Below, one piece after another: positions 1 through 14,473 of a stretch of DNA of 15,848 nucleotides. The notes under the pieces were generated by a model, which searched no databases, was not told the origin of the DNA, and was given only the letters and a program-made list of their open reading frames with translations. Position numbers and translations under genes: made by a program. Positions within the stretch are counted from its first letter, which is position 1, and each line of letters opens with the position of its first letter. The stretch comes from an uncultured Cellvibrio sp. (GTDB lineage: Bacteria; Pseudomonadota; Gammaproteobacteria; Pseudomonadales; Cellvibrionaceae), in NCBI GenBank assembly GCA_946886255.1, contig CAMPIG010000060.1, positions 1 to 15,848 on the forward strand, given 5' to 3'.

Positions 1-1799
1 TCAGCGCGCTGACTGAACTGATGGTGGCGGACAGCCGCGACGGTATTCAGGGTCACGCCGACAATCCAGAGTTGATGGCGGCGGGGATCAGTTTGGCGTT
101 TGGCATGGAACACCATGCTGAACGGCTGTTTCAGGATCTGTTGCAAGGCGAAAAGCGGCCGCAGAGGGTGCGTGATGCGGCGTGGTTTTATCTGGGCAAG
201 CTGCATTACATTCGCGGCAACTGGAACGAGGCCGAGCGGAGTTTTGCCCGCGTCAGTACCGATTTTAACCCGGTTCTCACCGGCGAAATGCGCGCCCTGC
301 AAATCAACCTGCAAATCCGCCGCGACCAACTCTCCCCTATCCCTCTCAAGCGTCTGAACCAGGAGCAACTGGGTAACTGGAGTCCCTACGCCCTCTACAA
401 CATGGGTTCCGCCTACGCCCGCAGCGGCGATTTCATGCAGGCCAGCAACTATTATCGTGAGCTGGTCAAGCTGGATGTTCCGGAAAATTCGCGCCTGCGC
501 GCCGAATACTGGACCTTGCAAGACAAAGCCCACACGGCGATGGGTTACGCCTTCCTGTTGCGGAGCAATTACACCTCCGCCATCGAGCAATTCAGCAAAG
601 TCATGCTCAGCGGGTCACAGTCGAATCAGGCGCTGTTGGGTTATGGCTGGGCGGCAGTGGAGCAGGAAGACTACGAGCTGGCGATTCGCCCCTGGCAGGT
701 CTTGCGCCAGCGCAGCCTGATCTACCCTCCGGTGCAGGAATCCCTGCTGGCCTTACCCTTCGCCTATGAAAAAATGGGCGCTGAGGGTGATGCGCTGTCG
801 GCTTACGAAATCGCCGAATCCCTGCTGACCGCCGAGATTGAATTGGTGCAGGATATGCGTGCTACGCTCACCAAAGGCGAGCTCCTGACGATAGTCGGCG
901 CCAAACCAGTCACTACGGAAGAGTTGGATGCAGCGGCCGCTGACCCGGTTACTGACCCCACTATCCTGACCGCTGTGGTCACCGATGATGGACAAAACTG
1001 GCTTAAGCTGGATCGTACCAGCGTGATCAAAACCCGGTCCGCCTACCTCACCGAACTCTTTGCTCAAAATGAATTCCAGACCGGCGTGCTGGATCTGCGC
1101 GATCTCCTGCGTCTGCGCAAGGTATTACAGGATTGGCAACCCAAGCTGGATATCTACGCCGACTTGCTGGAAGAAAAACAGCGGTTGCGCCAACAACAGG
1201 AGCAGCGCCTCGCGCAGCAGGCACTCGATCAGCAACGCATGGTTTTGCAGCAGGAACGCGACCAGTTAGCCGCACGTTTGCAGCGGATCGTTGATGATAA
1301 CGATGCTATGGCCCTGGCCGACGACAACAGTCGTGAACTCTATGAGATGGTGCAGCGCTCTGAGAATACCCTGCAACGCCTGGCGCAATCGGGTGAAGAT
1401 ACCAGCGATTATGCTGAAAGCCTGCGCATGTATCGCGGGATCTTATTGTGGCAGGCGGCGCAGCAATTCCCCGAGCGCTTGTGGCAGAACGAGAACAATC
1501 GCCAACAGATCGATGAGGCTCTGGCGCAATTGGATGAAACCTCGCGACGCATCGACGCCATTACCTCGACCAACCTGGATATTCGCCCCATGATGGCGCG
1601 GATTCGCCAGTTACAGAAAGAAACCCAGGATCAGCTCGTTGAAGCCGAGCGGGTCATCGACATCCGCGCCGAAGCGCTGCGCGAACAGGTGGATCGGCAG
1701 TTGGCTGGCCACCAGAAACGGCTTACGGCCTATCTGGCCCAATCTCACCTCGCCGTGGCGCGTCTGTATGACAAGGCGTTGAGGAAGCAAGCCCCATGA
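1..1799 (+). CDS. TPR and coiled-coil protein of the ExbB/ExbD cluster (5' partial)
   Basis: The reading frame is open to the left edge of the window (codons from position 3 onward), so the start codon and any signal peptide lie outside; the ATG at 21 is internal to a conserved-looking region and is unlikely to be the start. About 598 residues are visible. The first half has TPR-like helical pairs (roughly residues 35-80, 125-155 and 175-245 counted from the ATG at 21), including the pattern WFYLGKLHYIRGNWNEAERSF. Residues about 385-430 are a Gln/Arg/Leu-rich coiled coil, followed by more helical sequence to the end. Such proteins scaffold protein complexes; here the likely site is the periplasm, but that is inferred from the neighbouring lipoproteins. 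Its TGA stop overlaps the ATG of the next gene by 4 bp, so the two are translationally coupled. I do not recognise a named orthologue. Loosely comparable TPR proteins sit beside ExbB/ExbD genes in other gammaproteobacteria. Confidence 0.85.
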   Translation, partial: SALTELMVADSRDGIQGHADNPELMAAGISLAFGMEHHAERLFQDLLQGEKRPQRVRDAAWFYLGKLHYIRGNWNEAERSFARVSTDFNPVLTGEMRALQINLQIRRDQLSPIPLKRLNQEQLGNWSPYALYNMGSAYARSGDFMQASNYYRELVKLDVPENSRLRAEYWTLQDKAHTAMGYAFLLRSNYTSAIEQFSKVMLSGSQSNQALLGYGWAAVEQEDYELAIRPWQVLRQRSLIYPPVQESLLALPFAYEKMGAEGDALSAYEIAESLLTAEIELVQDMRATLTKGELLTIVGAKPVTTEELDAAAADPVTDPTILTAVVTDDGQNWLKLDRTSVIKTRSAYLTELFAQNEFQTGVLDLRDLLRLRKVLQDWQPKLDIYADLLEEKQRLRQQQEQRLAQQALDQQRMVLQQERDQLAARLQRIVDDNDAMALADDNSRELYEMVQRSENTLQRLAQSGEDTSDYAESLRMYRGILLWQAAQQFPERLWQNENNRQQIDEALAQLDETSRRIDAITSTNLDIRPMMARIRQLQKETQDQLVEAERVIDIRAEALREQVDRQLAGHQKRLTAYLAQSHLAVARLYDKALRKQAP

Positions 1800-4696
1800 G
1801 TCGCTTCCGTCTTATCTACATTGCCTGCTTTGGTATGTCGCTCATGACCGGCTGCGGTTTGTTCGGCGGCAACGAAGAACGCGAAGGCACACTGGCAGAC
1901 TTACCTCCCGCGACCCTCCCCAATGCGGCCAAGACGGTCGAGGTGATCGAGATTGATCGCATCGAAGCCAGCTATCGCAAGGCATTGGCGGTGGCTGAAG
2001 AGCCGGCCATGCGCCAGCAAATCCTGTTGCGCCTGGCGGATCTGGAGATGGCGCGCAGCGAACGGGAGCAAGAGGAGGCGACCGATCTGCGTCGCTTGTA
2101 CGACCGCCCCATCGCCATGTACCGCGAATTGATTGACTATGAGGCCAGCAAGCCCCAGCCCACCCAAGGCGTGGACATTGATCAACTGCGCTACAAACTG
2201 GCTAAAGCCTACGCGCTGGATGGCCGCAATGTCGAAGCGGCGGCGGTGCTAGATGAACTGGCGCAGAACCATCCCGACTCTCCCTTTATGTCTGAAACCC
2301 AGTTCCGCCGCGCGGAAAAAGCCTTTTCCGATGGCGACTATGCGGCGGCGGAAAACCATTACCGCAGCGTGGTGACTGGCGACGACGACACCTTCAAACA
2401 AAATGCGCTCTATATGCAGGGCTGGTCGCAATTCAAACGCGGCGACTATGATCTGGCCTTGCACGCCTTTGCCCAGGTACTGGATCAACTCCTGGCTTCT
2501 GCCAAACAGCCGGATCAGGTGAGTCAGGCGATGGCGGATCTGGGACCAGCACGCAGCAATCTGGTGGGCGATACCTTGCGGGTGATGGGGTTATCCTTGT
2601 CCTACCTTGATGGCCCTGCGTCGATCACCGACCTGCAAACGGAAATCGGGCCCAAGGTGTATCAGCACCTGTTATATGAGCAACTGGGCCAGTTGTATCT
2701 GGAGCAGAAGCGCTTCAATGACAGCGCTGAAACCTATAACCACTTTGTGGAAAACAATCCCAATTCGGACTTCGCGCCGGACTTCAGCATCAAGACCATC
2801 CAGACCTACGAGCAAGGCAACTTCCCCAGCCTGATCCTGCCGGCCAAGCAGGATTTTGTGCGCCGTTACGGCATCACCAGCCGTTTCTGGACCGAGCGCA
2901 ACGGCGCACTCAGCAATACCGCCCGCGCTTATCTGCATGAATCCTTGCAGGAACTGGCCGCCTACGAACACGCCGAAGCGCAACAGCTCAAAGCTAACAG
3001 CCAGACACTCACTGACCCACGTGAACAACAGGCAGCCAGCAATCAGGCGGTAGCCGCCTACGCCAGTGCCGCGCTGTGGTATCGCGAATTTGTGCAGACC
3101 TTTCCCCAGGACCCCAAAGCGGCGGACATGACTTTCCTGCTGGCGGAGTCTCTCTATGAAGCCGGCGACCTGGCCCAGGCATTGATGTCCTACGAAAAAG
3201 TGGCCTATGAATACCGCAGCCCGATTCACGGTGCCGAATCGGCTTATTCAGCGGTGCTCTTGTCGCAGGAGCTGATCGATCAAACCCAGCCAAACCTGGG
3301 TGAGGTGCGCCAGCAGTGGCAACAACGCAAGATCGACAATTCACTGCGCTTTGCCGAGGTTTACCCGACTGACCCGCGCGCCGTCACGGTGTTGGCGCAG
3401 GCGGCACCGGAGCTGCTGAATCAGGGCGATCAGGTGTCAGCCATTGCTGTGGCGGAGCGGGTCATTGCCTGGCAACCGCAGCCTGACGGTCAATTGCTAT
3501 TCAGTTCCTGGCTGGTGCTGGGGCACGGCCAGTTCGATCTCCAGCAATATCCTGCCGCCGAACAGGCTTACTGGCAGGTACTGAAGTTATTACCCACTTA
3601 CGGCCAAACCCCCGGTGCGCCGAGTCAGCAGGATGTGCGTGAGCGAATTGCGGCAAGTATTTACCAGCAGGCGCAAGCCTCGTTAACGGCGGGTGCAAAA
3701 GACGACGCCATCACCCAATTGCTGCGCATTACCGAAGTCACACCGGATACTGACGTGGCCATCAAAGCCCGTTACGACGCGGGTACTTATTTGATTGAGC
3801 AAGAACGCTGGGTGGATGCCGAGCGCGTATTGTTGTCTTTCCGCCAGCAATATCCCAACCATGAATTGGCGGCGAGTTTGCCGGCCAAGCTGGTGGTGGT
3901 GTACCAGAATCAGAGCAAATGGCAGCAGGCGGCGGATGAACTACTGGTAATGGAGCGCACCAGTACCGATCCGGATGTGAAACGCCAGTCCCTGATCATG
4001 GGCGCCGAGCTGTACGACAAATCCGGCGATCGCAATCGTGCTATCGAACAGTACACCCGCTACGCCAATAACTACCCGCGCCCACTGGCAGAGAATCTGG
4101 AAGCACAACATCGCCTGACCGAGCTGTATGCCGATACCGGCGATGGCACGCGCCGCCAATTCTGGTTGCAGAAGATCATCGATACCAACGCCGCTGCCGG
4201 CGATGCCCGCACGGATCGTTCAATCTACCTGGCGGCGTCCGCCGAAACCGAACTGGCGCAACCCGCCTATGATGATTTTGTGCGCATCCCACTTAATTTG
4301 CCGCTCAAGGCCAGTCTGCAACGCAAGCGTGCGGCGCTGGATAAGGCGCTCAAAGGCCAGGAGCGGATACTGCAATACGGCGTAGCCGAATTTACCACTC
4401 AGGCCAGTTTCCGTATCGGTGAAATTTATGCCCAATTGAGCCGCGACCTGATGGACTCCCAGCGTCCCAATGGCCTGGATGAACTGGAACTGGAGCAATA
4501 CGAGATCCTGCTGGAAGAGCAGGCGTATCCCTTTGAGGAGAAATCCATCGATATCCACCAGGCCAATGCTCAACGCAGTTGGAAAGGGACGTATGACGCA
4601 TGGGTAAAGCGCAGCTTTGAGGCGCTCGCCAAATTATTGCCCGGGCGTTACAACAAGCAGGAAACCCGTCTGGAGGTCAGCCATGAGATCCACTAG
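1796..4696 (+). CDS. Large TPR-repeat lipoprotein (966 aa)
   Basis: The N-terminus is a lipoprotein signal: basic start, hydrophobic stretch, lipobox LMTGC with Cys at residue 20. Residue +2 is Gly, not Asp, so outer-membrane sorting is expected under the Lol rule of enterobacteria. The mature protein is almost wholly helical repeats of TPR type, for example near residues 135-195, 200-235, 440-475, 575-605 and 655-760, with typical signatures such as GDYDLALHAFAQVL and GDRNRAIEQYTRYANNYP. No catalytic domain is visible, so a scaffold or adaptor role at the outer membrane is the best reading. A Shine-Dalgarno AGGAAG at 1782-1787 lies 8 nt before the ATG, and the start overlaps the previous stop (ATGA). 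Its own TAG stop lies 14 bp inside the next gene. Very long TPR proteins next to TolQ/TolR-type genes recall the Agl/Glt clusters, but orthology to a particular Glt protein cannot be judged here. Confidence 0.9.
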   Translation: MSRFRLIYIACFGMSLMTGCGLFGGNEEREGTLADLPPATLPNAAKTVEVIEIDRIEASYRKALAVAEEPAMRQQILLRLADLEMARSEREQEEATDLRRLYDRPIAMYRELIDYEASKPQPTQGVDIDQLRYKLAKAYALDGRNVEAAAVLDELAQNHPDSPFMSETQFRRAEKAFSDGDYAAAENHYRSVVTGDDDTFKQNALYMQGWSQFKRGDYDLALHAFAQVLDQLLASAKQPDQVSQAMADLGPARSNLVGDTLRVMGLSLSYLDGPASITDLQTEIGPKVYQHLLYEQLGQLYLEQKRFNDSAETYNHFVENNPNSDFAPDFSIKTIQTYEQGNFPSLILPAKQDFVRRYGITSRFWTERNGALSNTARAYLHESLQELAAYEHAEAQQLKANSQTLTDPREQQAASNQAVAAYASAALWYREFVQTFPQDPKAADMTFLLAESLYEAGDLAQALMSYEKVAYEYRSPIHGAESAYSAVLLSQELIDQTQPNLGEVRQQWQQRKIDNSLRFAEVYPTDPRAVTVLAQAAPELLNQGDQVSAIAVAERVIAWQPQPDGQLLFSSWLVLGHGQFDLQQYPAAEQAYWQVLKLLPTYGQTPGAPSQQDVRERIAASIYQQAQASLTAGAKDDAITQLLRITEVTPDTDVAIKARYDAGTYLIEQERWVDAERVLLSFRQQYPNHELAASLPAKLVVVYQNQSKWQQAADELLVMERTSTDPDVKRQSLIMGAELYDKSGDRNRAIEQYTRYANNYPRPLAENLEAQHRLTELYADTGDGTRRQFWLQKIIDTNAAAGDARTDRSIYLAASAETELAQPAYDDFVRIPLNLPLKASLQRKRAALDKALKGQERILQYGVAEFTTQASFRIGEIYAQLSRDLMDSQRPNGLDELELEQYEILLEEQAYPFEEKSIDIHQANAQRSWKGTYDAWVKRSFEALAKLLPGRYNKQETRLEVSHEIH

Positions 4697-5354
4697 TGCA
4701 TGGTTGCTGGCGGTGCTGCTGGTACTGACAGCCTGTTCGTCCGGCCCGAAAAAAGCCGATGTACCCGATGCTGAACAGGTTGCGGCAGACACAACGGGTC
4801 AGCCACAATCGCCCCTCTTGCCGCCGGGGCCGCCCACGCCCAACCCGTATCTGGCGACCAAACCCTCGATCAATCGCCAGGCGCAACAGTTGTTCAGCGA
4901 CGCCACCGCCGCTATGGCAAAAAAGCAGTGGCCCCAGGCGGAAAATCTGCTGACCCGCATGACGACGCAATATCCCAACCTGTCCGGCGCCCATCTCAAT
5001 CTGGGTCTGGTATATCAGGCCAAAGGTGAACTGGACAAAGCCGAACAGGCATTCAATCAGGCTATCGCGACCAACGCCAACAACCTGGATGCCTACAACC
5101 AGCTCGCTATCCTCAAGCGCGAATCCGGCGACTTTTCGGCAGCCGAAGAACAGTACAAAAAAGCGCTGACTATTTGGCCGTTTCACCCGGCCAGCCATCG
5201 CAACCTGGGCATTCTCTACGACCTGTACATGGGTAAAAGCGAGCAGGCACTGCAACACTACCAGGCTTACCAGCAATTGCTGCCGGAGCCGGACAAGCTG
5301 GTTAATGGCTGGATTGTCGATCTGGAGCGCCGGTTAGGCGCAAGCGGAGACTAG
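4683..5354 (+). CDS. Small TPR lipoprotein (223 aa)
   Basis: The frame is open from 4617, but the ATG at 4683 is the better start: GGAGG at 4672-4676 is 6 nt upstream, and translation from there gives a clean lipoprotein signal (MRSTSAWLLAVLLVLTAC, Cys 18). Ser at +2 fits outer-membrane retention. A Pro-rich linker (about residues 43-60) leads to three TPR units at roughly 102-135, 136-169 and 170-203, with the canonical N-L-G-x-x-Y and A-x-x-x-Y/F-x-x-A-L patterns (AHLNLGLVYQAKGELDKAEQ). The architecture resembles PilF/PilW-type and NlpI-type TPR lipoproteins, which act as assembly factors for envelope machines; there is no type IV pilus gene here, so a role with the adjacent ExbB/ExbD proteins is more likely. 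It overlaps the preceding gene by 14 bp and is followed after 3 bp by the next. Confidence 0.9.
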   Translation: MRSTSAWLLAVLLVLTACSSGPKKADVPDAEQVAADTTGQPQSPLLPPGPPTPNPYLATKPSINRQAQQLFSDATAAMAKKQWPQAENLLTRMTTQYPNLSGAHLNLGLVYQAKGELDKAEQAFNQAIATNANNLDAYNQLAILKRESGDFSAAEEQYKKALTIWPFHPASHRNLGILYDLYMGKSEQALQHYQAYQQLLPEPDKLVNGWIVDLERRLGASGD

Positions 5355-5357
5355 GTC

Positions 5358-5711
5358 ATGAAACATTATTGGTTAAAGCAGGGGTTAACGATGGCGGTGT
5401 TGCTGGGAGTGAATCTTCCGGCCATGGCCCAGGAAGCAGACATCGCGCCCGCTGCTGCACCGGAGGCTTCATCCGAGCCCGCACGTCCGCGCCCGACCGG
5501 CGAAGCCACGATCAATCTGCAAACCACGGTCACCGGTAATCAGGAACAACCACGGGTGTTGTACATCCTGCCCTGGCAATCACCGGAGGCTACCGATATC
5601 GAATTTGAAACCCTGAGCAGTCAGTATGACGAGGTTTTTGGCCACCTGGAGCGCGAAGAGCTGCGCCGCAGTCTGGAGGCTGAAGCGGCACTCAACAAAG
5701 CAAAGCCGTGA
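5358..5711 (+). CDS. Small secreted protein of unknown function (117 aa)
   Basis: I do not recognise this family. Residues 1-24 form a Sec signal peptide with a probable cut after AMA (residue 24). The mature protein starts with an Ala/Pro/Glu-rich, probably disordered segment (25-48). This is followed by a compact part with beta-type sequence (GEATINLQTTVTGNQEQP, then RVLYILPWQ at about 66-74) and an acidic/basic helix at the C-terminus (about 92-115). No lipobox or transmembrane helix follows the signal, so it is expected to be a soluble periplasmic protein. A GGAG at 5346-5349 is 8 nt before the ATG, and the gene begins 3 bp after the preceding stop, so it belongs to the TPR operon. Its place between the TPR lipoproteins and the proton-channel genes suggests an accessory periplasmic subunit of the same machine; this is inference from position alone. 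Confidence 0.8.
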   Translation: MKHYWLKQGLTMAVLLGVNLPAMAQEADIAPAAAPEASSEPARPRPTGEATINLQTTVTGNQEQPRVLYILPWQSPEATDIEFETLSSQYDEVFGHLEREELRRSLEAEAALNKAKP

Positions 5712-5836
5712 TGCTCATGCGTTACATCAAATTTTGAAAAATACGCCGTGAAAACCGCTAGAGACTAGCTAAGCTAATAGAACGCTTTTTCATTACATCA
5801 CCTACATCCATAAGTCAGTTGAAGGACAGTGCTTTT
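5712..5836 (+). other. Intergenic gap before the proton-channel genes; possible promoter region
   Basis: This is the only gap over 100 bp inside the cluster, and it is more AT-rich than the flanking genes. It could hold a promoter for the exbB-like operon, but I find no convincing -35/-10 pair: TTGAAA at 5734-5739 has only weak -10 matches downstream. The octamer TTACATCA occurs twice (5722-5729 and 5793-5800), and TAGCTAAGCTA near 5767-5777 is a near-palindrome. No terminator hairpin with a T-run follows the upstream gene, so read-through from the TPR genes remains possible. Confidence 0.35.
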
Positions 5837-6511
5837 ATGAACACATTAATTCGTTTCTTCCAGGAAGGCGGTACTTTTATGTACCCCATCGCCGTCGTAC
5901 TGGTAGTTGGTCTGGCTATCGCCATCGAGCGCTGGTTGTTCCTGAGCGTGGCCAAGCGGTCCAATCGCCAGGCCTTTGACCGCATCCTGCCCTTGCTGCA
6001 AAAACGCGATTATCAAGGGGTCATGAATACCGGTAAATCCACCAATGCGCCCATAGCGCGCATTGTTTGTGCCGGTGTGGCGCGCATGGCGCAATCGCCT
6101 CGCCGTGACGACATTGAACTGGCCATGGAAGAGGGAGTGATGGAAGCCATGCCGCGTCTTGAACGTCGTACACCCTATCTGGCGACCCTCGCCAATATCG
6201 CCACGTTGCTGGGACTGTTGGGTACCATCATCGGCTTGATCGCCGCCTTCGGTGCGGTAGCCAATGCCGACCCGGCCGAGAAAGCTGCGCTGCTGTCTTC
6301 CAGTATTGCAGTGGCGATGAACACCACGGCCTTCGGTCTGATCGCTGCTATTCCGTTATTGCTGATCCACTCCATGTTGCAAACCAAAACCACCGAGATC
6401 ATCGACAGCCTGGAGATGGCCGGGGTCAAGTGCCTCAACATCATCTCCCACGTGCAGGAGATGCCCCAGAGAAACCGCGCGCAGGATTCAGCGGCGCCGA
6501 GCCGAGCCTAA
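5837..6511 (+). CDS. MotA/TolQ/ExbB-family proton channel subunit
   Basis: This inner-membrane protein forms, with ExbD/TolR partners, a channel that turns proton flow into mechanical work on envelope proteins. Three transmembrane helices are visible, at about residues 15-37, 117-141 and 155-181, with the long cytoplasmic stretch between the first and second that is typical of the family. The family hallmarks are LATLANIATLLGLLGTIIGLI (TM2, with GLLGT) and SIAVAMNTTAFGLIAAIP (TM3, with the paired Thr lining the channel). The frame is open from a TTG at 5819, but the ATG at 5837 is preferred: AAGGA at 5822-5826 is 10 nt upstream, and the protein then begins MNTLIRFFQEGG, like other family members. 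The 224-residue length is normal. It heads the ExbB-ExbD-ExbD-TonB-like set; with two different ExbD proteins downstream it is closer to AglR-type than to iron-uptake ExbB systems. Confidence 0.93.
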   Translation: MNTLIRFFQEGGTFMYPIAVVLVVGLAIAIERWLFLSVAKRSNRQAFDRILPLLQKRDYQGVMNTGKSTNAPIARIVCAGVARMAQSPRRDDIELAMEEGVMEAMPRLERRTPYLATLANIATLLGLLGTIIGLIAAFGAVANADPAEKAALLSSSIAVAMNTTAFGLIAAIPLLLIHSMLQTKTTEIIDSLEMAGVKCLNIISHVQEMPQRNRAQDSAAPSRA

Positions 6512-6519
6512 ACCCCGGC

Positions 6520-6552
6520 AAGGCCACAACCTTTTTCCGGAAGGGCGGCCTT
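6520..6552 (+). other. Inverted repeat between exbB-like and first exbD-like gene
   Basis: AAGGCC (6520-6525) pairs with GGCCTT (6547-6552), and the enclosed loop contains the palindrome TTCCGGAA (6535-6542). No T-run follows, so this is not a standard terminator. It could act as an RNA processing or stability element setting channel-to-ExbD stoichiometry. The structure is seen in the sequence; the role is a guess. Confidence 0.35.
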
Positions 6553-6585
6553 TCACTCATCTGATGGTTACAGGTAGCACTGGTT

Positions 6586-7125
6586 ATGCGCATTAAAAGG
6601 CGACACAAACACGGGGAAGCCGATCTCGACGTCACCTCCTTTATGAATCTGATGATCATATTGGTGCCGGTGTTGTTGATCAGCATGGTGCTCGCGCGGA
6701 CCACGGTACTGGATTTGAAACTGCCTGACATGGCGGATCCCAGTACCCCGCAAGAGGAAGAACCTCCGCAACAACTGGAACTGGTGATTCGCAAGGATTA
6801 CCTCGATGTGAATTACCCGGCCGGTATTCGTCTGAAGCGCGTCGAGAAGACACCCGAGGGCGAGTACGATTACAAGCTATTATCCACCATCCTCCAGGAA
6901 GTAAAGCGCAGCCTGGAAGAAAAAGGTATCGAGAAAAAAGACATCTTCATCCTCTCGGAAAAAGACACGTCCTACCAGACGGTAGTGACAACGATGGATA
7001 CTGTGCGCTCCTTCAAGGCGGTGGTCGCGGCCTCGGTGGTTAACGCGGAATTGTTTCCGGAAATTTCATTGGGTGATGCACCGGAAGGTGAGTCCACCAC
7101 CGCAGTACAGGGGGCACAGCCATGA
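6586..7125 (+). CDS. ExbD/TolR-family protein 1, with Asn at the usual membrane Asp
   Basis: This is a single-pass inner-membrane protein with a short cytoplasmic N-terminus (RRHKHGEAD), one transmembrane helix (about residues 19-37) and a periplasmic domain (about 60-165), the normal ExbD/TolR layout. The N-terminal motif DLDVTSFMNLMIILV aligns with the DINVTPFIDVMLVLL type motif of ExbD, where the Asp in the helix (D25 in E. coli ExbD, D23 in TolR) carries the protons. Here that position is Asn 21 (codon AAT at 6646-6648), so this subunit should not be able to bind the proton. At 179 residues it is somewhat longer than E. coli ExbD. The ribosome binding site is weak (AGGT about 11 nt upstream). 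The stop overlaps the next ATG (ATGA, 7122-7125). It probably pairs with the second ExbD in the same motor; that pairing is inferred. Confidence 0.92.
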   Translation: MRIKRRHKHGEADLDVTSFMNLMIILVPVLLISMVLARTTVLDLKLPDMADPSTPQEEEPPQQLELVIRKDYLDVNYPAGIRLKRVEKTPEGEYDYKLLSTILQEVKRSLEEKGIEKKDIFILSEKDTSYQTVVTTMDTVRSFKAVVAASVVNAELFPEISLGDAPEGESTTAVQGAQP

Positions 7126-7646
7126 AGCAATCGCTGCGCGCCAAACGTATGGCCAAACACCATCGCCGTATGAACCAGGCACCCAAGCTGAACCTGGTGT
7201 CGTTGATGGATATCTTCACCATCCTGGTGTTCTTCCTGTTGGTGAACTCTTCGGATGTAGAAGTCTTGCAGACCGACAAGAGCATCAAGCTGCCGGCGTC
7301 GGTCTCCGACATAGTCCCGGAAAATAATCTGGTGGTGATGGTCAGTGCAGAAGACATTGTCGTCGCTGGTCAGCGTATCGGCAGTGTGGCCTCGGTATTG
7401 GCCAGCACGGACGATAAATACGCACCGCTGGAGACAGAATTAAAGTATCAGGCATCCAAAGCCCGCCCATTGACGGAGGAAGAAAAACTTACCGGTCGGC
7501 CGGTCACGATCATGGGAGATCAGACCATTCCCTATGAATTGCTGAAAAAAATCATGACCACCTGCGCGGCGGCTGATTACCGGGATATTTCCCTCGCCGT
7601 GTCGCAGACGGTAGTTTCTGATGATGCGCAGGGGGCGGAGGGCTGA
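7122..7646 (+). CDS. ExbD/TolR-family protein 2, with the conserved membrane Asp
   Basis: This is the second ExbD/TolR-type protein of the cluster, 174 residues. A very basic N-terminus (KQSLRAKRMAKHHRRM) precedes the motif LNLVSLMDIFTILVFFLLV, whose Asp 30 corresponds to the proton-carrying Asp of ExbD and TolR. There is one transmembrane helix at about 27-43, then a periplasmic domain with two probable beta-alpha units (about 68-95 and 125-165). It differs clearly from the preceding ExbD in the helix and periplasmic part, so it is a distinct subunit and not a recent copy. AGGGGG at 7109-7114 is 7 nt before the ATG, which overlaps the upstream stop by 4 bp. Its TGA overlaps the next ATG by 1 bp (TGATG). 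Having two unlike ExbD genes behind one ExbB parallels AglR-AglQ-AglS of Myxococcus. Confidence 0.93.
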   Translation: MKQSLRAKRMAKHHRRMNQAPKLNLVSLMDIFTILVFFLLVNSSDVEVLQTDKSIKLPASVSDIVPENNLVVMVSAEDIVVAGQRIGSVASVLASTDDKYAPLETELKYQASKARPLTEEEKLTGRPVTIMGDQTIPYELLKKIMTTCAAADYRDISLAVSQTVVSDDAQGAEG

Positions 7647-8602
7647 TGACATTTTATCTTTCCCCCAATACCCTGCTGCCCTGGAGTTCGTCGGCTGAGG
7701 ACGACGAGCGCTTTAAGCGTATCCTCAAAATTGCATTGATTGCGTTGGTGGTGCTGAGTATTCCGATCACGCTTATTGATGTACCGGAACAAACTCGTGA
7801 AGAAAAGGCCAAGCTTCCGCCGCAACTGGCGCGGGTGATCCTGGAGAAACAGGAATTGCCACCGCCCAAACCGGTGGAGCCACCCAAGGTCGAAGAGAAA
7901 AAACCTGAAGAGCCCAAACCGGAAGAACCGAAACCTGAGCCGGAGAAAAAACCGGAACCGGTAAAAGAAAAGCCGCCGGAAAAACCCAACGTCGCCAAGG
8001 CGCGCGAAAAAGCGGCGGCCAGTGGTTTGTTGCAATTCAAGGACGACCTGATGGAGATGCGCGAGTCGCTCGATGTGTCTGCTATCGACAGCGCCAATGT
8101 TGCACGTGGTGAAGCAACCGCAGCCACTGTGGATCGTTCCATGGTGACCAGCGGCGTGACGACCGCCAGTGGCGGTATCAACACAGCCGCCCTGAGCCGC
8201 GATACCGGCGGTGTGGCGCTGTCCGGTCGTGAAACTACGAAAGTGGAAAGTGATCTGGCTAAATCCACCGGTACAACGGCAGCAGATAGCGGCGGTCAGG
8301 CGCAAGAAAGTGCGGCGCGCAGCGAAGAAGAAATCCGTAAGGTCATGGAGCAGCACAAGGGTGCGATCTTCTCGATCTACAACCGCGCGTTACGTCAGAA
8401 TCCGGCATTGCAGGGCAAGGTGGTGGTGAAGATTATCATCGAGTCATCGGGCAAGATTTCCGATGCGAGTATTGTGTCCAGCGAATTGCAAGATCCGGAA
8501 CTGGAGGCAAAGCTTTTACAGCGTATTCGCCTGATCAGTTTCCCGGCCTCCAATGTTGCGCGAACGACCTTGAACTATTCGTTTGATTTCTTACCGCAGT
8601 AA
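7646..8602 (+). CDS. TonB-like energy transducer with AgmX/PglI-type C-terminal domain
   Basis: This 318-residue protein has the TonB plan. There is a short cytoplasmic N-terminus and one transmembrane helix (about 26-44, RILKIALIALVVLSIPITLI). A rigid Pro/Lys/Glu-rich arm follows (about 73-115, with repeated KPEEP/KPEPE units), then a low-complexity Ser/Thr/Gly/Ala segment (about 145-225) and a folded C-terminal domain (about 227-318). That domain begins EEIRKVMEQHKGAIFSIYNRALRQ and continues GKVVVKIIIESSGKISDASI, which matches the AgmX/PglI C-terminal family (TonB-like fold) better than classical TonB; no YP motif of the TonB box-binding type is visible. It would connect the ExbB/ExbD motor to partners in the periplasm or outer membrane, plausibly the TPR lipoproteins. 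There are two G-rich ribosome-binding candidates (7631-7636, 7638-7642). It is the last gene before a strong terminator. Confidence 0.9.
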   Translation: MTFYLSPNTLLPWSSSAEDDERFKRILKIALIALVVLSIPITLIDVPEQTREEKAKLPPQLARVILEKQELPPPKPVEPPKVEEKKPEEPKPEEPKPEPEKKPEPVKEKPPEKPNVAKAREKAAASGLLQFKDDLMEMRESLDVSAIDSANVARGEATAATVDRSMVTSGVTTASGGINTAALSRDTGGVALSGRETTKVESDLAKSTGTTAADSGGQAQESAARSEEEIRKVMEQHKGAIFSIYNRALRQNPALQGKVVVKIIIESSGKISDASIVSSELQDPELEAKLLQRIRLISFPASNVARTTLNYSFDFLPQ

Positions 8603-8614
8603 ATTCTCTGTAAT

Positions 8615-8642
8615 AAAAAACCCGGCAATTGCCGGGTTTTTT
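8615..8642. terminator. Bidirectional rho-independent terminator
   Basis: The 16-nt palindrome CCCGGCAATTGCCGGG (8621-8636) is flanked by six A (8615-8620) and six T (8637-8642), so it makes a stem-loop with a T-run on either strand. It lies between convergent genes (TonB-like on +, OmpA-like on -), 12 bp past the first stop and 18 bp past the second, and should end both transcripts. Confidence 0.93.
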
Positions 8643-8660
8643 ATTTGCTTATCACTCACA

Positions 8661-9713
8661 TCAATCGCGGGTTTCGTTCACCGTTATACGGGTTGAAACT
8701 GCACCTACAACGCGACGGTTTTGCTCGCGACCTTCGACGGTGTTGTTGTCGGCAACCGGACGTTCTTCACCAAAACCCACGGCTGTTACACGATCCGCCT
8801 CAATGTTCATGCGTTGGATCAAGACATCGCGAACGGAGTTGGCGCGACGTTGTGACAGGGTTTTGTTGTAGGCATCAGAACCGCTGCTGTCGGTGTGACC
8901 TTCAACGGTGACTTCGGTATTTTCATACTGGTTCATGAAAGTAGCGAGGTCGCGGATATCAGACATGTACTCTTCTTTCACCACGGCGCTGTTGGTATCG
9001 AATTTCACCGCAAGGTTGATCGATACGGTTTCGGTCAACTTCAACACACAGCCTTCGCTGTCCACTTTGTATTGACGCGCCGTGCCGGGGCATTTGTCTT
9101 TGGAATCCAGTACGCCGTCGCCATCGCTGTCCGCTTCTTCGATCACTGTGGGTGCTGCAACAGGTTCCGGTGCCGGTGTTGCACGGCGGGGCTCGCCTGC
9201 ACCAAACAGGAAGCTGATACCGGTGCTGAATACGACATCGGTGTATTCCTCATCAAGGCTGTTAAACAAACGCACGTCGGTGCGCCATTCCCAGTTGCGC
9301 GCGAAACGATTCTTCAAACCGAGGCCGGCGTTGAGCAGGGTTTCATGGCTGGGGTCGCCGCCTTCCGGGCTCAGGCGTTGATCGCCTGCACCGAATGCCG
9401 CGTAGGGACGCCAGTTTTGATCGTCACCAAAGTGATAGAGTGCATCGAGGCGGTATTGGGTGCCGCGCACGTCAACGCCGGTCACTTGCGCATCTGCATC
9501 ATATTCATTGGCAACAACTTCCAATGTCCAGCGGTCACTAATGGGTAAACCCAGGCCGAGGTGGTAGTTGTTGGTATCATCAAGGTCGTTACCGAACAGG
9601 ATGCGGCCAATGCCGAGATTGATTTCCGCGCTGTGATCTTGTGCGCTGACACCAGTGCTGGCAGCGGCAATCAATGCAGATAACGTCAGGATTTTTGCCG
9701 ATGGATTTGCCAT
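8661..9713 (-). CDS. OmpA/OprF-family outer-membrane protein (copy 1)
   Basis: This 350-residue protein links the outer membrane to peptidoglycan. There is a Sec signal peptide (cut after VSA, residue 24) and an N-terminal beta-barrel of about eight strands (25-171, ending ISFLF). A Pro/Ala linker (174-190) leads to a thrombospondin type-3 calcium-binding-like segment (DSDGDGVLDSKDKCPGT, 195-211) with a Cys pair at 208 and 222. The OmpA-like peptidoglycan-binding domain follows (about 228-345), with EGHTDSSGSD and NKTLSQRRA containing the expected Asp 275 and Arg 290. The layout is that of Pseudomonas OprF and its relatives. AAGGAGT (9719-9725 on the opposite strand) sits 5 nt before the ATG; a possible -10 (TAAAAT, 9741-9746 on this strand) has no good -35. 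It is the downstream copy of a tandem pair, with 232 bp between the two, so it probably has its own promoter. Confidence 0.95.
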   Translation of the reverse strand: MANPSAKILTLSALIAAASTGVSAQDHSAEINLGIGRILFGNDLDDTNNYHLGLGLPISDRWTLEVVANEYDADAQVTGVDVRGTQYRLDALYHFGDDQNWRPYAAFGAGDQRLSPEGGDPSHETLLNAGLGLKNRFARNWEWRTDVRLFNSLDEEYTDVVFSTGISFLFGAGEPRRATPAPEPVAAPTVIEEADSDGDGVLDSKDKCPGTARQYKVDSEGCVLKLTETVSINLAVKFDTNSAVVKEEYMSDIRDLATFMNQYENTEVTVEGHTDSSGSDAYNKTLSQRRANSVRDVLIQRMNIEADRVTAVGFGEERPVADNNTVEGREQNRRVVGAVSTRITVNETRD

Positions 9714-9945
9714 TAGTAACTCCTTAGCAATAGCAGGTGAATTTTAACAATGAAATTTGGGGGTTAGTTCGATGCAGGTTAAGTGTGTAAATGTGCGGAC
9801 CATTAAGACATTTTGATAAAACAACGTCTGTTTGTGCTCACACATAAACCCACGCAACCAATGCAGCTGTTGAGAGATGTTTTTGGATCTTCGAACGACG
9901 ACGATGCGACGTCCTTGTCGCCTTCACTTAATCCTGTAATGGAAA

Positions 9946-10983
9946 TTAACGTGTTTCAGTGGTGGTAATTTTGGTTGCAACCGCGCCGACGACGCGACGA
10001 TTCTGTTCACGGCCCGCCACAGATTCATTGTCCGCAATCGGGCGCTCTTCACCATAACCAACCGCCGTTACGCGATCTGCTTCAATACCCGTGCGTTGCA
10101 CTAACACATCCCGCACGGCGTCAGCACGGCGTTGCGATAAGGTCTTGTTGTAAGCATCGGAGCCGCTACTGTCGGTATGACCTTCAACGGTGACGACGGT
10201 ATTGGCGTATTGGTTCATGAACGTGGCCAGGTTGTTGATATCGGCCATGTATTCTTCTTTGACGACTGCGCTGTTGGTATCAAATTTCACCGCCAGGTTG
10301 ACCGACACAGTTTCCGTTAGCTTCATCGGGCAACCATCGGCATCAACTTTATATTGCCGAGCGGTGCCGGGGCATTTGTCCTGTGAATCCAGTACGCCAT
10401 CCCCGTCGCTGTCAGCTTCTTGCGTGGTAGCGACCACGGGTGGAGGTGTTGGAGCTTTTTTAACGGGCTTGGCGCCAAACAGGTAACTGATGCCGAGATT
10501 CAATGCCACATCGGTATATTCTTCATCAAGGCTGTTAAAGGCACGCACGTCGGTACGGAATTCCCAGTTATTGCCCAGGCGACGTTTGGCGCCGGCACCC
10601 AGATTAAGCAGGGTATCCCGCACACCTTCGGCACCGTCTGCTTCGCGTTCCTGGTCACCCACACCGAAGGCCAGGTAAGGCCGCCATGCATTGACCGTGT
10701 CCAGGTGGTACAGCAGATCCAGACGATATTGGCGGCCATCAATTTCAATCGCACCGGTTTCAGTATCGGTGCTGTAGCCGCTGGCGATGGCATCAAGGGT
10801 CCAGCGCTCATCGAGCACGTAGCCCAGACCGAGGTTCACATGATTAGCATTTTCGAGCGGCTCTTCAAAGAAGGTGCGACCGGCGCCGAGATGCAGTTCG
10901 AGCTTGTGATCCTGGGCATGAGCGGTGAAGGGGAGGGCAGCAGCTGCAATAAGGGCAGACAGCAGAAGTTGTTTGTTCGCCAT
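9946..10983 (-). CDS. OmpA/OprF-family outer-membrane protein (copy 2)
   Basis: This paralogue of the adjacent OmpA-like gene has 345 residues. The frame is open further upstream, but the ATG at 10983 is chosen because AAGGAG lies 7 nt before it and the protein then starts with a normal signal peptide (MANKQLLLSALIAAAALPFTAHA, cut after residue 23). The beta-barrel spans about 24-169, with a short Pro/Lys linker (172-185). The TSP3-type segment DSDGDGVLDSQDKCPGT is at 191-207 with Cys 204 and 218, and the OmpA-like domain (about 224-340) has EGHTDSSGSD (Asp 271) and LSQRRA (Arg 286). The C-terminal half is nearly identical to copy 1, while the barrel and linker have diverged, as expected for surface-exposed loops after an old duplication. 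No T-run terminator is seen after the stop; only a short GCGAC/GTCGC hairpin (9906-9921). Confidence 0.95.
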   Translation of the reverse strand: MANKQLLLSALIAAAALPFTAHAQDHKLELHLGAGRTFFEEPLENANHVNLGLGYVLDERWTLDAIASGYSTDTETGAIEIDGRQYRLDLLYHLDTVNAWRPYLAFGVGDQEREADGAEGVRDTLLNLGAGAKRRLGNNWEFRTDVRAFNSLDEEYTDVALNLGISYLFGAKPVKKAPTPPPVVATTQEADSDGDGVLDSQDKCPGTARQYKVDADGCPMKLTETVSVNLAVKFDTNSAVVKEEYMADINNLATFMNQYANTVVTVEGHTDSSGSDAYNKTLSQRRADAVRDVLVQRTGIEADRVTAVGYGEERPIADNESVAGREQNRRVVGAVATKITTTETR

Positions 10984-11157
10984 TTCGTTCTCCTTTGAAA
11001 ATAGCTGGGTCATTAACGCGCGATTGACCGGAAAATTGTGCACCGGCTGTCTGCAAATATGTGCAAAAAGCGTTGAGCGTATAGGTCATCACGCACAACC
11101 AACGCATAAATTGATATCCCTGTCATTGTTGTATTGAATTGCGCGCACGATAACAAA

Positions 11158-11889
11158 TTAGTTCAGACGTTGGAATAACAAATCCCACACGCCGTGACCT
11201 AAACGTTCACCACGTTTTTCAAATTTTGTGATCGGACGATAAACCGGTCGTGGGGAGTAGTCACTGGCTTCAGACAGATTGCCGAATCCCTCCGCCTGGC
11301 TCATGACCTCTAACATATGTTCGGCATAATTCTGCCAATCCGTTGCGAGGTGAAATACACCCCCGAGTTTCAATTTTTGTCGGATTTTTTGCACAAAAGC
11401 CGGCTGCACAATGCGCCGCTTATGGTGCTTTTTTTTGTGCCAGGGATCGGGAAAGTAAAGCTGTAGACGGTCGAGGCTGGCATCGGGAATACAATCTTCG
11501 AGGACATCCATCGCATCTGCCATAAATACCCGCAAGTTGCGTAAGCCTTCCTTGCCGGCCTGATTAATCAATCGACCCACACCGGGAGGATGTACTTCGA
11601 TACCAATGAAATTTTTGTCCGGCTCGTTGCGCGCCATCTCCAGTAGAGAATCGCCCATGCCAAACCCGATCTCCAGAACAGTCGGCACTTCGCGTTGAAA
11701 AGTATCTGCAAGGTTTAGTGGGCCATCATGCAAACTCAAACCATAGTCGGGCCACCATTGATCAAAGGCAGCTTTCTGGCCGAGCGTAATGCGTCCGGCG
11801 CGAATAACAAAGCTGCGGATGGATTTGGGTTTGAATTCGGGTTTGATCTCGAAGGTAGGTTGATCGTCGAGCTTGGTATCGATAGGCAT
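11158..11889 (-). CDS. trmB: tRNA (guanine-N7-)-methyltransferase TrmB
   Basis: This enzyme uses S-adenosylmethionine to make m7G at position 46 in the variable loop of tRNAs, in the cytoplasm. The 243 residues match the family length. Visible motifs are the SAM-binding LEIGFGMGD (72-80), [11 protein letters not shown] (97-107) and the catalytic/tRNA-contacting [16 protein letters not shown] (144-159). The C-terminal signature [20 protein letters not shown] (218-237) is diagnostic of TrmB. The 40-residue N-terminal extension is of the usual bacterial kind. There is no recognisable Shine-Dalgarno before the ATG at 11889, and the gene starts 39 bp after the DUF423 stop, so it is probably cotranscribed with and perhaps translated after that gene. 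No clear terminator follows in the 174 bp before the OmpA-like gene. Confidence 0.96.
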
Positions 11890-11928
11890 GGGAACGTTTT
11901 TCAGGGAAAAGGAAAGAAAATCGGTTTA

Positions 11929-12306
11929 TCAGAATTTTAGCTTCATAGCGGCTATCAGTAATGACAGCCAGCCCAATAAAAAGCATACACCGCCCAAGGG
12001 AGTAATCGGGCCAAGTAGGCGTGGGCCACCAAGGGCCAGTCCATAGAGACTGCCGCTGAACAACAGGGTGCCGATGATAAACAGAATGCCGCCGGTTTGC
12101 AGCCAGATATTATGGCCGACGAATTTCAGAAGAGCTGCGATGCCCAGCAATGCCACTGCGTGATACATCTGGTATTGCACGCCGGTTTGAAAGACAGCGA
12201 GCATCTCCGGCGCTAACCGGGCTTTCAAGCCGTGGGCGGCAAAGGCGCCAAGGCCGACGGCGAGGAATCCGCTGAGCGCGGCGCAAAGTAATAGCCATTG
12301 TCCCAT
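11929..12306 (-). CDS. DUF423 family small membrane protein
   Basis: This is a 125-residue integral inner-membrane protein with four hydrophobic helices (about 3-24, 44-64, 69-92 and 97-121). The N-terminal LSGFLAVGLGAFAAHGLKARL and the central FQTGVQYQMYHAVALLGIA are the hallmarks of DUF423 (E. coli YgdD and relatives), and the length is typical. The biochemical function is unknown; no catalytic residues can be argued for. It begins about 100 bp after rpoH, beyond a terminator, and precedes trmB by 39 bp, so the two form a likely small operon. The ribosome-binding site is weak (GAGAAG just upstream of the ATG). Confidence 0.93.
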   Translation of the reverse strand: MGQWLLLCAALSGFLAVGLGAFAAHGLKARLAPEMLAVFQTGVQYQMYHAVALLGIAALLKFVGHNIWLQTGGILFIIGTLLFSGSLYGLALGGPRLLGPITPLGGVCFLLGWLSLLIAAMKLKF

Positions 12307-12354
12307 GGGCGCTTCTCGGTGTGCTTTTGGTTATTGACGGATTGGTGGCACAAT

Positions 12355-12382
12355 AAAAAAGCCGCGCACGGGCGCGGCTTTT
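12355..12382 (-). terminator. Rho-independent terminator of rpoH
   Basis: GCCGCGC (12361-12367) and GCGCGGC (12372-12378) pair around a 4-nt loop. On the - strand this is followed by six T (complement of A at 12355-12360), and on the other side A/T pairs extend the stem. It lies 24 bp past the rpoH stop and before DUF423, so it separates these two units. Confidence 0.92.
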
Positions 12383-12405
12383 GATCATTTATTACATGGG
12401 TTGGC

Positions 12406-13260
12406 TCAGGCTTCCAGCATCATATTCTTAACTTTGTTCATCGCATTTTTTTCCAGCTGACGGATGCGTTCGGCGGATACACCGTATTCAGCGGCCAGAT
12501 CATGCAAGGTTGCCTTGTCATCATTTAACCAGCGACGTTGCAAAATGGTACGGCTGCGGTCATCCAGTTTTTCCATCGCCAGCTCCAGGCTGTTCACACT
12601 GGTTTCTTCCCAGTCGGCTGCTTCCAGTTGCGTGGCCGGATTATAGCGATTGTCTTCCAGGTAATGGGCCGGTGCGACGTAGCTGTCGTCATCGTCGTCA
12701 TCGCTCGCATCGAAGGCAGCATCGTAAGATGCCAGGCGACCTTCCATCTCGCGCACGTGTTTGATGTCTACGCCCAGATCTTCTGCCACCGCAGCGGCTT
12801 CATCATTGCTCAGCCATGCCAGGCGCTTCTTGGCGCCGCGCAGGTTAAAGAACAGTTTACGCTGGGCCTTGGTGGTCGCAATCTTGACGATGCGCCAGTT
12901 GCGCAGGATAAATTCGTGGATTTCGGCCTTGATCCAATGCACGGCGAAAGACACCAGACGCACGCCTTTTTCCGGGTTGAAGCGTTTAACCGCTTTCATC
13001 AAACCGACGTTACCTTCCTGAACCAGGTCGCCCAAGGGCAAACCATAGCCATTGTAAGAACGGGCAATATGTACCACGAAACGCAAGTGCGCCATGACCA
13101 GCTTGCGCGCCGCGTCGAGATTACCGTTGTAATACAAATCTTCCGCCAGTTCCTGTTCCTGCTCCACCGTAAGGATTGGGAAGGCACTGACTCCTTGAAC
13201 ATAGGCATTGAGGTTTGCACCTGGGGCAAGCACGCCAATAGGTTGCAGACTTGTGCTCAT
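12406..13260 (-). CDS. rpoH: Heat-shock sigma factor RpoH (sigma-32)
   Basis: This is the RNA polymerase sigma factor for heat-shock genes. At 284 residues it is the same length as the E. coli protein. Region 2 is clear: [20 protein letters not shown] (region 2.1), [19 protein letters not shown] (core-binding, 77-94) and [19 protein letters not shown] (-10 recognition). The RpoH-specific box QRKLFFNLR is at 133-141, and region 4.2 carries the helix-turn-helix [18 protein letters not shown]. An acidic run of six Asp (187-192) lies in the linker between regions 3 and 4; E. coli has a similar Ser/Asp stretch. GGAGGT is 7 nt before the ATG. The gene lies 193 bp downstream of ftsX, the standard ftsYEX-rpoH order of gammaproteobacteria, with promoters in the gap and a terminator after the stop. 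Confidence 0.98.
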
Positions 13261-13308
13261 GTAAGTTACCTCCAGTAAAAATGTAGGCCGAGTGTAGCAC
13301 TAGTGAGA

Positions 13309-13335
13309 TTAGAGTGCTATGCGCTAACAAGTTCC
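13309..13335 (-). promoter_or_regulatory. Sigma-E-type promoter of rpoH
   Basis: On the - strand, GGAACTT (13329-13335) is an exact match to the sigma-E -35 consensus. A 15-nt spacer follows, then TCTAA (13309-13313), which fits the TCnnA type -10. The predicted start is near 13302, leaving a leader of about 42 nt. Sigma-E control of rpoH is known in E. coli (the P3 promoter); here it is inferred from the sequence. Confidence 0.65.
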
Positions 13336-13381
13336 ATAATGGTCGCGTAAAACCGTTTCAAATCAGTATGTTGGGTGCAGA

Positions 13382-13409
13382 ATTGTATAAATATTGATTC
13401 ATTTGGCAA
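13382..13409 (-). promoter_or_regulatory. Sigma-70-type promoter of rpoH
   Basis: On the - strand, TTGCCA (13404-13409, 5 of 6 matches) is followed by a 16-nt spacer and TACAAT (13382-13387, 5 of 6 matches). Transcription would start near 13375, about 115 nt before the rpoH ATG and upstream of the sigma-E-type site. Confidence 0.55.
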
Positions 13410-13453
13410 GCATTTGATCAATTGCAAATTTCTATGGCTATGGATGGGTCGGT

Positions 13454-14473
13454 TCAATGAGGCTCAATCTGCGACAGATGTCGCCCTACGGCAATCCAAG
13501 CTCCCAATAAGCCGGTAATTCCGGTCAATAGCACTAACTGCAAGCTATGGATAAAGCCTAAGCCTTGCAAGCGAAAGCTACTTTGATATAGATCAGCCAG
13601 CTGCGCGACAGGGCCACCCAGCCAACTTAAACCGATACCTAACAAGAGCAAGGCAAGCAACCCACCGCCCAACCCATACCAGAGGCCGGTATAGAGAAAC
13701 GGGCGGCGTACGTAAGCGTTGGTCCCACCCACCAGTTTAACCACTAGGATTTCGTCGCGGCGATTTTCAATGGCAAGGCGAATGGTATTGCCGATCACCA
13801 GGATCACGCCCAGCGCCAACAAACCTGCCAGGGCCATTACCACGTGTTGGGCGACCGCCATGAACTGATGCAGGCGTTTGACCCATTGCATATCAATACG
13901 CACGTCTTCTACCAGCGGATCTTTACGCAGTGATTGTTCCAGGGCTTCCAGTCCCGCCGGTGTGCTGCCGGCCAGCCCCGGTTGTACCAGCAGAACACCG
14001 GGTAGCGGGTTTTCTTCCAGGCTATCAACTACCTGGCCCAAGCCCGAGGCAACCTTGAATTCTTTCAGCGCTGCAGCGGGAGAAACATAAGTTATCTGGG
14101 CAATATCCGGACGATTCACCCAGCGGCGACGCAGGTCTTCAGCCTGATTGTCTGATACTTGTTTATTGAGAAAAACAGAGATTTGGCTGGAATCCTGCCA
14201 GCTGTAGCCAATGTTCTCGATGTTAGTCAGCGCAATATAGAGAATCGCCGGTAAGGCCACGGCGATGGCAACCACGAACCAGGTCATAAGGCTTTGCAAG
14301 GGCGTGCGCAGCAGGCGTAGCAAGCTGTCGATGGCGGTGGTGCTGTGATGGGCCATCCAGGCGTCAAAGCGATCGCCCACGCGGGATTTGCTTTGTACCG
14401 CACCTTGCGGGCGAGCCGGTTGGGGTGGTGTGCGTTCATTGCCAGCAGAGCGATTCGGACGTACAGGTTTCAC
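13454..14473 (-). CDS. ftsX: Cell division ABC-transporter-like permease FtsX
   Basis: This is the inner-membrane partner of FtsE. The complex activates peptidoglycan hydrolysis (through EnvC in E. coli) and helps divisome assembly. The 339-residue protein has a Pro/Arg-rich cytoplasmic N-terminus (1-62) and TM1 (about 64-84). A periplasmic domain follows (about 88-205, including SGLGQVVDSLEENPLPGVLLV), then three further helices (about 208-231, 262-285 and 311-332). The loop after TM2 has IENRRDEILVVKLVGGTNAYVRRPFL, the conserved FtsX coupling segment. Translation starts at a GTG: GGAG (14481-14484) is 7 nt upstream, and the GTG overlaps the ftsE TGA as GTGA. No terminator is seen after the stop, so read-through into rpoH is possible. 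Confidence 0.96.
   Translation of the reverse strand: MKPVRPNRSAGNERTPPQPARPQGAVQSKSRVGDRFDAWMAHHSTTAIDSLLRLLRTPLQSLMTWFVVAIAVALPAILYIALTNIENIGYSWQDSSQISVFLNKQVSDNQAEDLRRRWVNRPDIAQITYVSPAAALKEFKVASGLGQVVDSLEENPLPGVLLVQPGLAGSTPAGLEALEQSLRKDPLVEDVRIDMQWVKRLHQFMAVAQHVVMALAGLLALGVILVIGNTIRLAIENRRDEILVVKLVGGTNAYVRRPFLYTGLWYGLGGGLLALLLLGIGLSWLGGPVAQLADLYQSSFRLQGLGFIHSLQLVLLTGITGLLGAWIAVGRHLSQIEPH

Follow-up and report, generated by a model that had tools for sequence, protein, structure and literature searches.

A 15,848-nucleotide stretch of DNA deposited under an uncultured Cellvibrio sp. (contig CAMPIG010000060.1, positions 1 to 15,848; hereafter the window) carries in its first 8,602 nucleotides a gene cluster that very probably encodes a version of the Agl-Glt core complex, a kind of proton-powered, envelope-spanning machine described since 2011 as a non-gliding relative of the Myxococcus gliding motor, here from a close relative of Cellvibrio. 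We assign the cluster to this kind because its composition, its gene order and the ancestry of its ring protein agree. Eight open reading frames (ORFs) run in one direction across positions 3-8602 (Table 1) and encode three tetratricopeptide repeat (TPR) proteins (T1, T2 and T3), a small secreted protein (S4), one ExbB/TolQ-type protein (B5), two ExbD/TolR-type proteins (D6 or ExbD1, and D7 or ExbD2) and a TonB-like protein with an AgmX/PglI-type C-terminus (X8), a set that a sequence-only reading had named and that the ORFs, Pfam and NCBIfam confirmed. B5 matched MotA_ExbB (PF01618, 104.9 bits, cut-off 22.9), D6 and D7 matched ExbD (PF02472, 51.4 and 57.0 bits, cut-off 25.4), and the 318-residue X8 matched the AgmX/PglI C-terminal domain (NF033768, 77 bits, cut-off 40), all three families that the reading had proposed to search scoring above cut-off.

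The Group B genes gltC, gltD, gltE, gltG, aglR, aglQ and aglS lie in one region in Gammaproteobacteria, along with one additional gene absent in Myxococcales and Bdellovibrionales (Luciano et al. 2011, PMC3169522), and a 2013 paper again names the core a standalone core machinery (PMC3858216). The cluster shares with this core the single region, one AglR-type and two TolR-type proteins, the GltG-type transducer, three TPR proteins and the additional gene, which would be S4 or a gene termed U1 below, and no tested difference separates the two. The gene set and protein lengths of the window also match the published core and the Myxococcus xanthus proteins (GltC 673, GltE 471, AglR 245, AglQ 162 and AglS 194 residues; PMC3169522). 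Carriers of the core include Saccharophagus and Teredinibacter, and core duplications are reported in these two genera and in Marinobacter (PMC3169522). The likeness to Agl-Glt and the occurrence of relatives in non-gliding proteobacteria, both claimed by the sequence-only reading, are thus supported, the latter by the core of non-gliding Gammaproteobacteria (PMC3169522); its hint of novelty falls, the core having been described in 2011 and 2013 (PMC3169522, PMC3858216), as the reading itself had partly said. Two points weigh against the assignment. The GltE, GltG and GltJ models matched far under their cut-offs (GltE on T3, 48 bits against 225 and not above the score of an unrelated TPR model; full-length GltG on X8, 47 bits against 650), and the likeness to M. 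xanthus was drawn from composition, order and published descriptions, not from direct sequence comparison.

Table 1. Genes of the cluster in the window.
Gene	Positions	Strand	Product and proposed counterpart
T1	3..1799	+	periplasmic TPR protein, helical stretch at the C-terminus, N-terminus truncated by the window edge; putative GltC position
T2	1796..4696	+	966-residue TPR lipoprotein; putative GltD position
T3	4683..5354	+	223-residue TPR lipoprotein; putative GltE position
S4	5358..5711	+	small secreted protein, conserved segment GNQEQPxVLYIxPWQ
B5	5837..6511	+	MotA/TolQ/ExbB-type ring protein, AglR-like
D6 (ExbD1)	6586..7125	+	ExbD/TolR-type axle protein, Asn21 at the channel-Asp site; AglQ position
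D7 (ExbD2)	7122..7646	+	ExbD/TolR-type axle protein, Asp30 at the channel site; AglS position
X8	7646..8602	+	inner-membrane-anchored, proline-rich TonB-like transducer, AgmX/PglI C-terminal domain; GltG-like

Ancestry of the ring protein

The B5 tree held 65 rows (41 core, 8 linked to type VI secretion system (T6SS) genes and 16 TolQ, ExbB or other); not included were 83 of the 124 core rows, four motor-only rows and ten named rows, among them L095, L112 and MotA. The 49 B5 rows, the window's included, fell on one side of a 100/100 branch, and E. coli TolQ and ExbB, together with 14 ExbB/TolQ-type rows from relatives' genomes, fell on the other, by which the ring protein is shown to have an ancestry separate from TolQ and ExbB. 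A placement inside ordinary ExbB/ExbD-TonB iron systems, which the sequence-only reading had named as refuting it, was thus not found for the ring protein. In an earlier quick tree of 161 rows, two very long 'other' rows, not included among the 65, fell inside the core group. Where E. coli ExbB and TolQ have the Glu of the IAEAL motif, B5 carries Val, as found in 78 of 80 rows, and it scored below cut-off with the TolQ (71 bits, cut-off 221) and ExbB (51.5 bits, cut-off 206.2) equivalog models. B5 shares 83-84% identity with Cellvibrio records, and a search of solved structures matched it to TolQ, ExbB and MotA; the same search with X8 gave a best E of 0.025, without clear meaning.

Conservation of the cluster in relatives

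Gene content was compared in two sets of loci: set A (seeded), comprising the 80 best among 127 loci that a search with B5 found in genome contigs, and set B (class-drawn gammaproteobacteria), comprising 60 loci, one per genome, from 60 of the 61 genomes above the AgmX/PglI cut-off; the 61st, G001, is represented in set A by its core locus L001. This cut-off was passed by 61 of 274 class-drawn genomes and by 15 of 398 genomes in a phylum-wide draw. Since set A rows supplied the profiles for the core genes, which were then run on both sets, detection is partly circular in set A and not in set B. The four motor genes (B5, D6, D7 and X8) stood together in 76 of the 80 set A loci, 65 of them with T2, 6 after T6SS genes and 5 with neither, the contig starting ≤1.2 kb before B5 in all 5. 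They likewise stood together in 55 of 60 set B loci (50 with T2, 2 after T6SS genes and 3, L199, L201 and L204, with neither); four of the remaining loci are short contig-end stretches (L160, L178, L207 and L213) and L212 has no recognised core gene. In L201 and L204 the motor and transducer genes stand alone, no TPR or T6SS gene being recognised alongside.

The order U1-T1-T2-T3-S4-B5-D6-D7-X8, as far as the genes are present, was kept in 62 of 65 set A clusters with motor and T2 (exceptions L055, L066 and L072) and in 49 of the 50 such clusters of set B (exception L169), and all nine genes were recognised in 57/80 and 33/60 loci, respectively. The cluster is not a chance arrangement, because its order is conserved in other genomes; the synteny survey of Gammaproteobacteria that the sequence-only reading had called for found the TPR genes syntenic with the ExbB/ExbD genes.

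U1, which lies outside the window, seems to belong to the cluster. It was recognised upstream of the TPR genes in 60/80 set A and 44/60 set B loci (out of order in L072) and encodes a secreted protein (for example L001 3496-4020) that has no Pfam match; its predicted structure combines a helix and a beta sandwich (mean pLDDT 88), and the model found no PDB match at E ≤ 0.001. Because U1 is missing from the window and T1 is cut by its edge, the machine cannot be called complete, as had been claimed.

Parts of the cluster

T1 matched TPR_16 (38.8 bits) and TPR_1 (35.9 bits) in Pfam and is 55% identical to T1 of L001 across 596 residues; in the alignment it starts opposite residue 58 of the open frame in L001, and T1 of relatives begins with a signal peptide, as judged by eye. 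T2 matched TPR_6 (71.4 bits, Pfam) and a YbgF-type repeat model (103.7 bits, cut-off 90.1, NCBIfam), with about 65% identity to Cellvibrio proteins and 66% to a Cellvibrio japonicus protein, and T3 matched TPR_12 (71.8 bits, Pfam); the three TPR proteins stand in putative GltC, GltD and GltE positions. That two of them have lipoboxes was upheld by eye for T2 (..MTGC-G) and T3 (..LTAC-S); among relatives a simple pattern found a lipobox in 35/69 T2, 50/69 T3 and 2/63 T1 frames, with Asp at +2 in none.

S4 has no Pfam or NCBIfam match and its predicted structure is mostly disordered, with conserved residues seen in an alignment of 53 rows. The segment GNQEQPxVLYIxPWQ (window 5535-5579) is conserved while the remaining S4 sequence varies, and it may be a docking segment. 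X8 also passed a TonB-family C-terminal model in NCBIfam (29 bits, cut-off 27.1), Pfam TonB_C being sub-threshold. The description of the genes as mostly overlapping was right for four of the seven junctions (T1/T2, T2/T3, D6/D7 and D7/X8), whereas the other three are spaced by 3, 125 and 74 bases.

An Asn/Asp split between the axle proteins

Asn21 of D6 aligns with the channel Asp of E. coli ExbD (FIDV) and TolR (LLDV), as does Asp30 of D7. Across the window and 79 loci, the channel site was Asn in 80/80 D6 rows and Asp in 80/80 D7 rows, and the profile survey of set A gave the same result (79/79 for each). Among 56 D6 rows of set B, 54 had Asn, one had Asp (L200) and one was cut before the site (L207), hence Asn in 54 of the 55 readable rows, and D7 had Asp in 56/56 rows.

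A review gives both AglQ and AglS of M. xanthus a channel Asp and states that it is not known whether they form homo- or heterodimers (PMC9389320), and the AglQ D28N mutation abolished proton conductance, paralysed the motility machinery and blocked sporulation (PMC3858216). By gene order, D6 would be the AglQ counterpart. The Asn of D6, taken together with the dead AglQ D28N mutant, leads us to predict an asymmetric, heterodimeric axle, and we lean towards a D6:D7 heterodimer with a single proton site; a simple equivalence with AglRQS is at odds with the Asn of ExbD1. No description of this Asn was found in the literature searched, as far as passages and listings show, and a term search of Luciano et al. 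2011 gave no mention of it (PMC3169522).

Several observations count against this interpretation. L200 is a class-drawn core cluster with Asp in D6 (7543-8606, minus strand, ExbD1 and ExbD2 both with Asp; the cluster holds U1, T1, T2, S4 and the motor genes), and among the best 120 of 3,888 relatives of its D6 the site is Asp in all 120. The split is not universal because of L200 and these relatives, and a second lineage retains Asp in ExbD1. Furthermore, an acidic residue lies six residues before the D6 channel site in 68/80 rows (Asn there in 12/80), and it might stand in for the channel Asp.

Comparison with known machines

With M. xanthus AglRQS and its Glt and Nfs partners, the cluster shares the motor composition, the TonB-like transducer and the TPR partners (PMC3858216, PMC9389320). 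There, AglR binds GltG in a two-hybrid assay (PMC3169522) and also NfsG, and one AglRQS motor serves two machines, Glt and Nfs, of which the Nfs version acts at the spore coat (PMC3858216). AglQ and AglS of M. xanthus both have Asp, in contrast to ExbD1 here (PMC9389320), and M. xanthus GltG is a 640-residue protein with an FHA domain (PMC3169522), whereas X8 has 318 residues and no FHA domain was found in it. The Group A parts of the gliding machine (gltA, B, F, H, I, J and K) were not seen in the window.

TolQR-TolA and ExbBD-TonB belong to the same protein families with a presumed five-to-two ring and axle; they differ in that two unlike ExbD/TolR proteins, the Val in place of the IAEAL Glu and a separate clade mark the present cluster, where no TolB, Pal or receptor was recognised. 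Clusters of the PVC group likewise combine one TolQ-like ring protein, two unlike TolR-like genes and a TPR gene, but their transducer ends in a vWA domain rather than the AgmX/PglI domain of X8 (PMC12204202).

Proposed mechanism and alternatives

We put forward, as an evenly balanced proposal, that the cluster encodes an Agl-Glt core whose motor, with its D6:D7 axle, drives X8 against a TPR platform at the outer membrane and so moves an outer-membrane or surface complex. The protein families imply the roles of ring, axle and transducer. B5 would form a five-fold ring enclosing one D6 and one D7 helix; as D6 has Asn, protons would pass by Asp30 of D7 alone, hence the heterodimeric axle. The motor would drive X8, whose rod would cross the peptidoglycan and whose C-terminal domain would pull on a platform built from T2 and T3, both TPR lipoproteins; T1, S4 and U1 would be periplasmic partners. 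A lipobox without Asp at +2 generally directs a lipoprotein to the outer membrane, and the lipoboxes of T2 and T3, lacking this Asp, are the reason for placing the platform there. That force is exerted on an outer-membrane complex is probable. The job would be to move or re-set that complex, and handling of a surface polymer or adhesin is a tentative suggestion by analogy with Nfs and with Fibrobacter, in which an OmpA-TPR-TPR-ExbB-ExbD-ExbD-TonB run is more abundant on cellulose (PMC6851124). The machine would serve neither siderophore uptake nor, by itself, gliding. Weighing against the proposed job, the Fibrobacter run was likened by description and not by sequence, and the neighbour genes vary by lineage and point to no single job.

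An envelope-integrity machine in the manner of Tol-Pal, in which the TPR lipoproteins would replace TolB, Pal and CpoB and the motor would join outer membrane and cell wall, is unlikely. The YbgF-type TPR model passed by T2 (103.7 against 90.1 bits) speaks for it, as does the higher score of B5 with the TolQ than with the ExbB model (71/221 against 51.5/206 bits, both below cut-off), but Pfam found neither a TolB nor a Pal domain in the eight proteins, and the 61 of 274 class-drawn genomes above the AgmX/PglI cut-off are few for a housekeeping task. Besides the ring protein of the cluster, relatives have a distinct TolQ-type one that clusters with TolQ of E. coli, so that the Tol job seems filled.

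We regard as still less likely a Ton-type energizer for polysaccharide breakdown products, with X8 opening TonB-dependent transporters. Its TonB-family C-terminus is barely above cut-off (29 against 27.1 bits), and the authors of the Fibrobacter study propose an uptake role for their TonB/ExbB/ExbD run (PMC6851124); however, B5 forms a clade separate from ExbB, there are two different ExbD proteins, and the conserved partners are TPR proteins instead of a receptor. Neither a TonB-dependent receptor nor an iron gene was recognised among the ORFs of the window, as the sequence-only reading had said, the downstream ORFs having been judged partly by reading without a profile search. Surface gliding or bead movement, as driven by Agl-Glt in Myxococcus, is very improbable despite the relationship of the motors by composition and literature (PMC3169522), as no adhesin was recognised among the neighbour families present in at least three class-drawn loci, a survey that did not profile-search all of them and did not look for MglA.

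The motor behind type VI secretion genes

Outside the window, B5-D6-D7-X8 follows TssL-TssM-TagF-PppA-PpkA on the same strand and without TPR genes in 8 of 140 loci (L030, L034, L075, L076, L077, L079, L156 and L159), the T6SS genes having been identified by Pfam on representatives of L034, L076 and L077 and by our own profiles in the others. The hypothesis of a single clade for all eight copies has a p-AU of 1.5e-7 for B5 and of 1.9e-36 for D6 and is thereby rejected; for X8 the rejection is weak (0.018). On these tree comparisons the motor was acquired at least twice by the T6SS-linked loci. In Cellvibrio sp. 79, the copies of the T6SS-linked L034 and the core L043 share 86% identity in B5, 85% in D6 and 73% in D7 and only 33% in X8, so that the motor was seemingly exchanged and the transducer kept. 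This arrangement resembles the M. xanthus AglRQS motor serving both Glt and Nfs (PMC3858216). No report of a link between the motor and T6SS was found among the literature matches listed, ExbD being absent from part of them. It is a doubtful generalization that the AglRQS-type motor of most Gammaproteobacteria is asymmetric, its ExbD1:ExbD2 axle being obligate and having one proton site only, and that it serves as a portable power unit which, besides driving its TPR core machine, has come to stand behind PpkA of a T6SS cluster on at least two occasions.

Neighbouring genes

Two OprF/OmpA-type genes on the minus strand (8661-9713 and 9946-10983) adjoin the cluster downstream in convergent orientation; they are 66% identical over 326 positions and are apparently a tandem duplication. 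The pair was excluded as a part of the machine, only L033 among the 80 seeded loci having a match, about 8 kb off. Further downstream lie ORFs that, named without a profile search, we take to be trmB, DUF423, rpoH, ftsX, ftsE and ftsY.

In relatives, ApbE is a neighbour in 28/80 seeded and 11/60 class-drawn loci, and the type II secretion genes gspL, gspM and gspN occur with ApbE in 22-26 of the 80 seeded loci, upstream of U1 in Cellvibrionales. A DUF1501-like gene (by reading; the L032 copy has no Pfam match) adjoins one for a LamG-domain protein upstream of the cluster in L014, L029, L032, L037, L042, L051, L054, L055, L057, L066, L074, L164, L166 and L186; counted over the sets, the pair is found upstream in 12-13/80 and 5/60 loci, mostly in Halieaceae and Spongiibacteraceae. 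Class-drawn loci further have thioredoxin-like (15/60), SH3, barrel-like and DUF3570 genes (12/60 each). Genes of these families, some with DUF4266 or ApbE, recur before U1 in L031, L033, L061, L161, L163, L174, L182, L183, L192, L197, L209 and others. Among the known substrates of ApbE is DUF3570, which flavinylation clusters combine with thioredoxin-like and DUF4266 genes (PMC8238504), making a redox or flavinylation link of the cluster possible, as a lead only. Because the neighbours change with lineage, none was adopted as a clue to the job.

Implications

The core machine has been described since 2011 without a function, its role in non-gliding Gammaproteobacteria being unknown as of Luciano et al. 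2011 (PMC3169522), and the Asn/Asp split offers a feature of it that can be tested with single residues. The conserved split predicts a heterodimer and thereby bears on the homo- or heterodimer question raised for AglQ and AglS (PMC9389320). The T6SS link, if functional, would provide a second assayable output of the same motor, and, should the portable power unit prove true, those T6SS would carry their own proton-driven trans-envelope motor.

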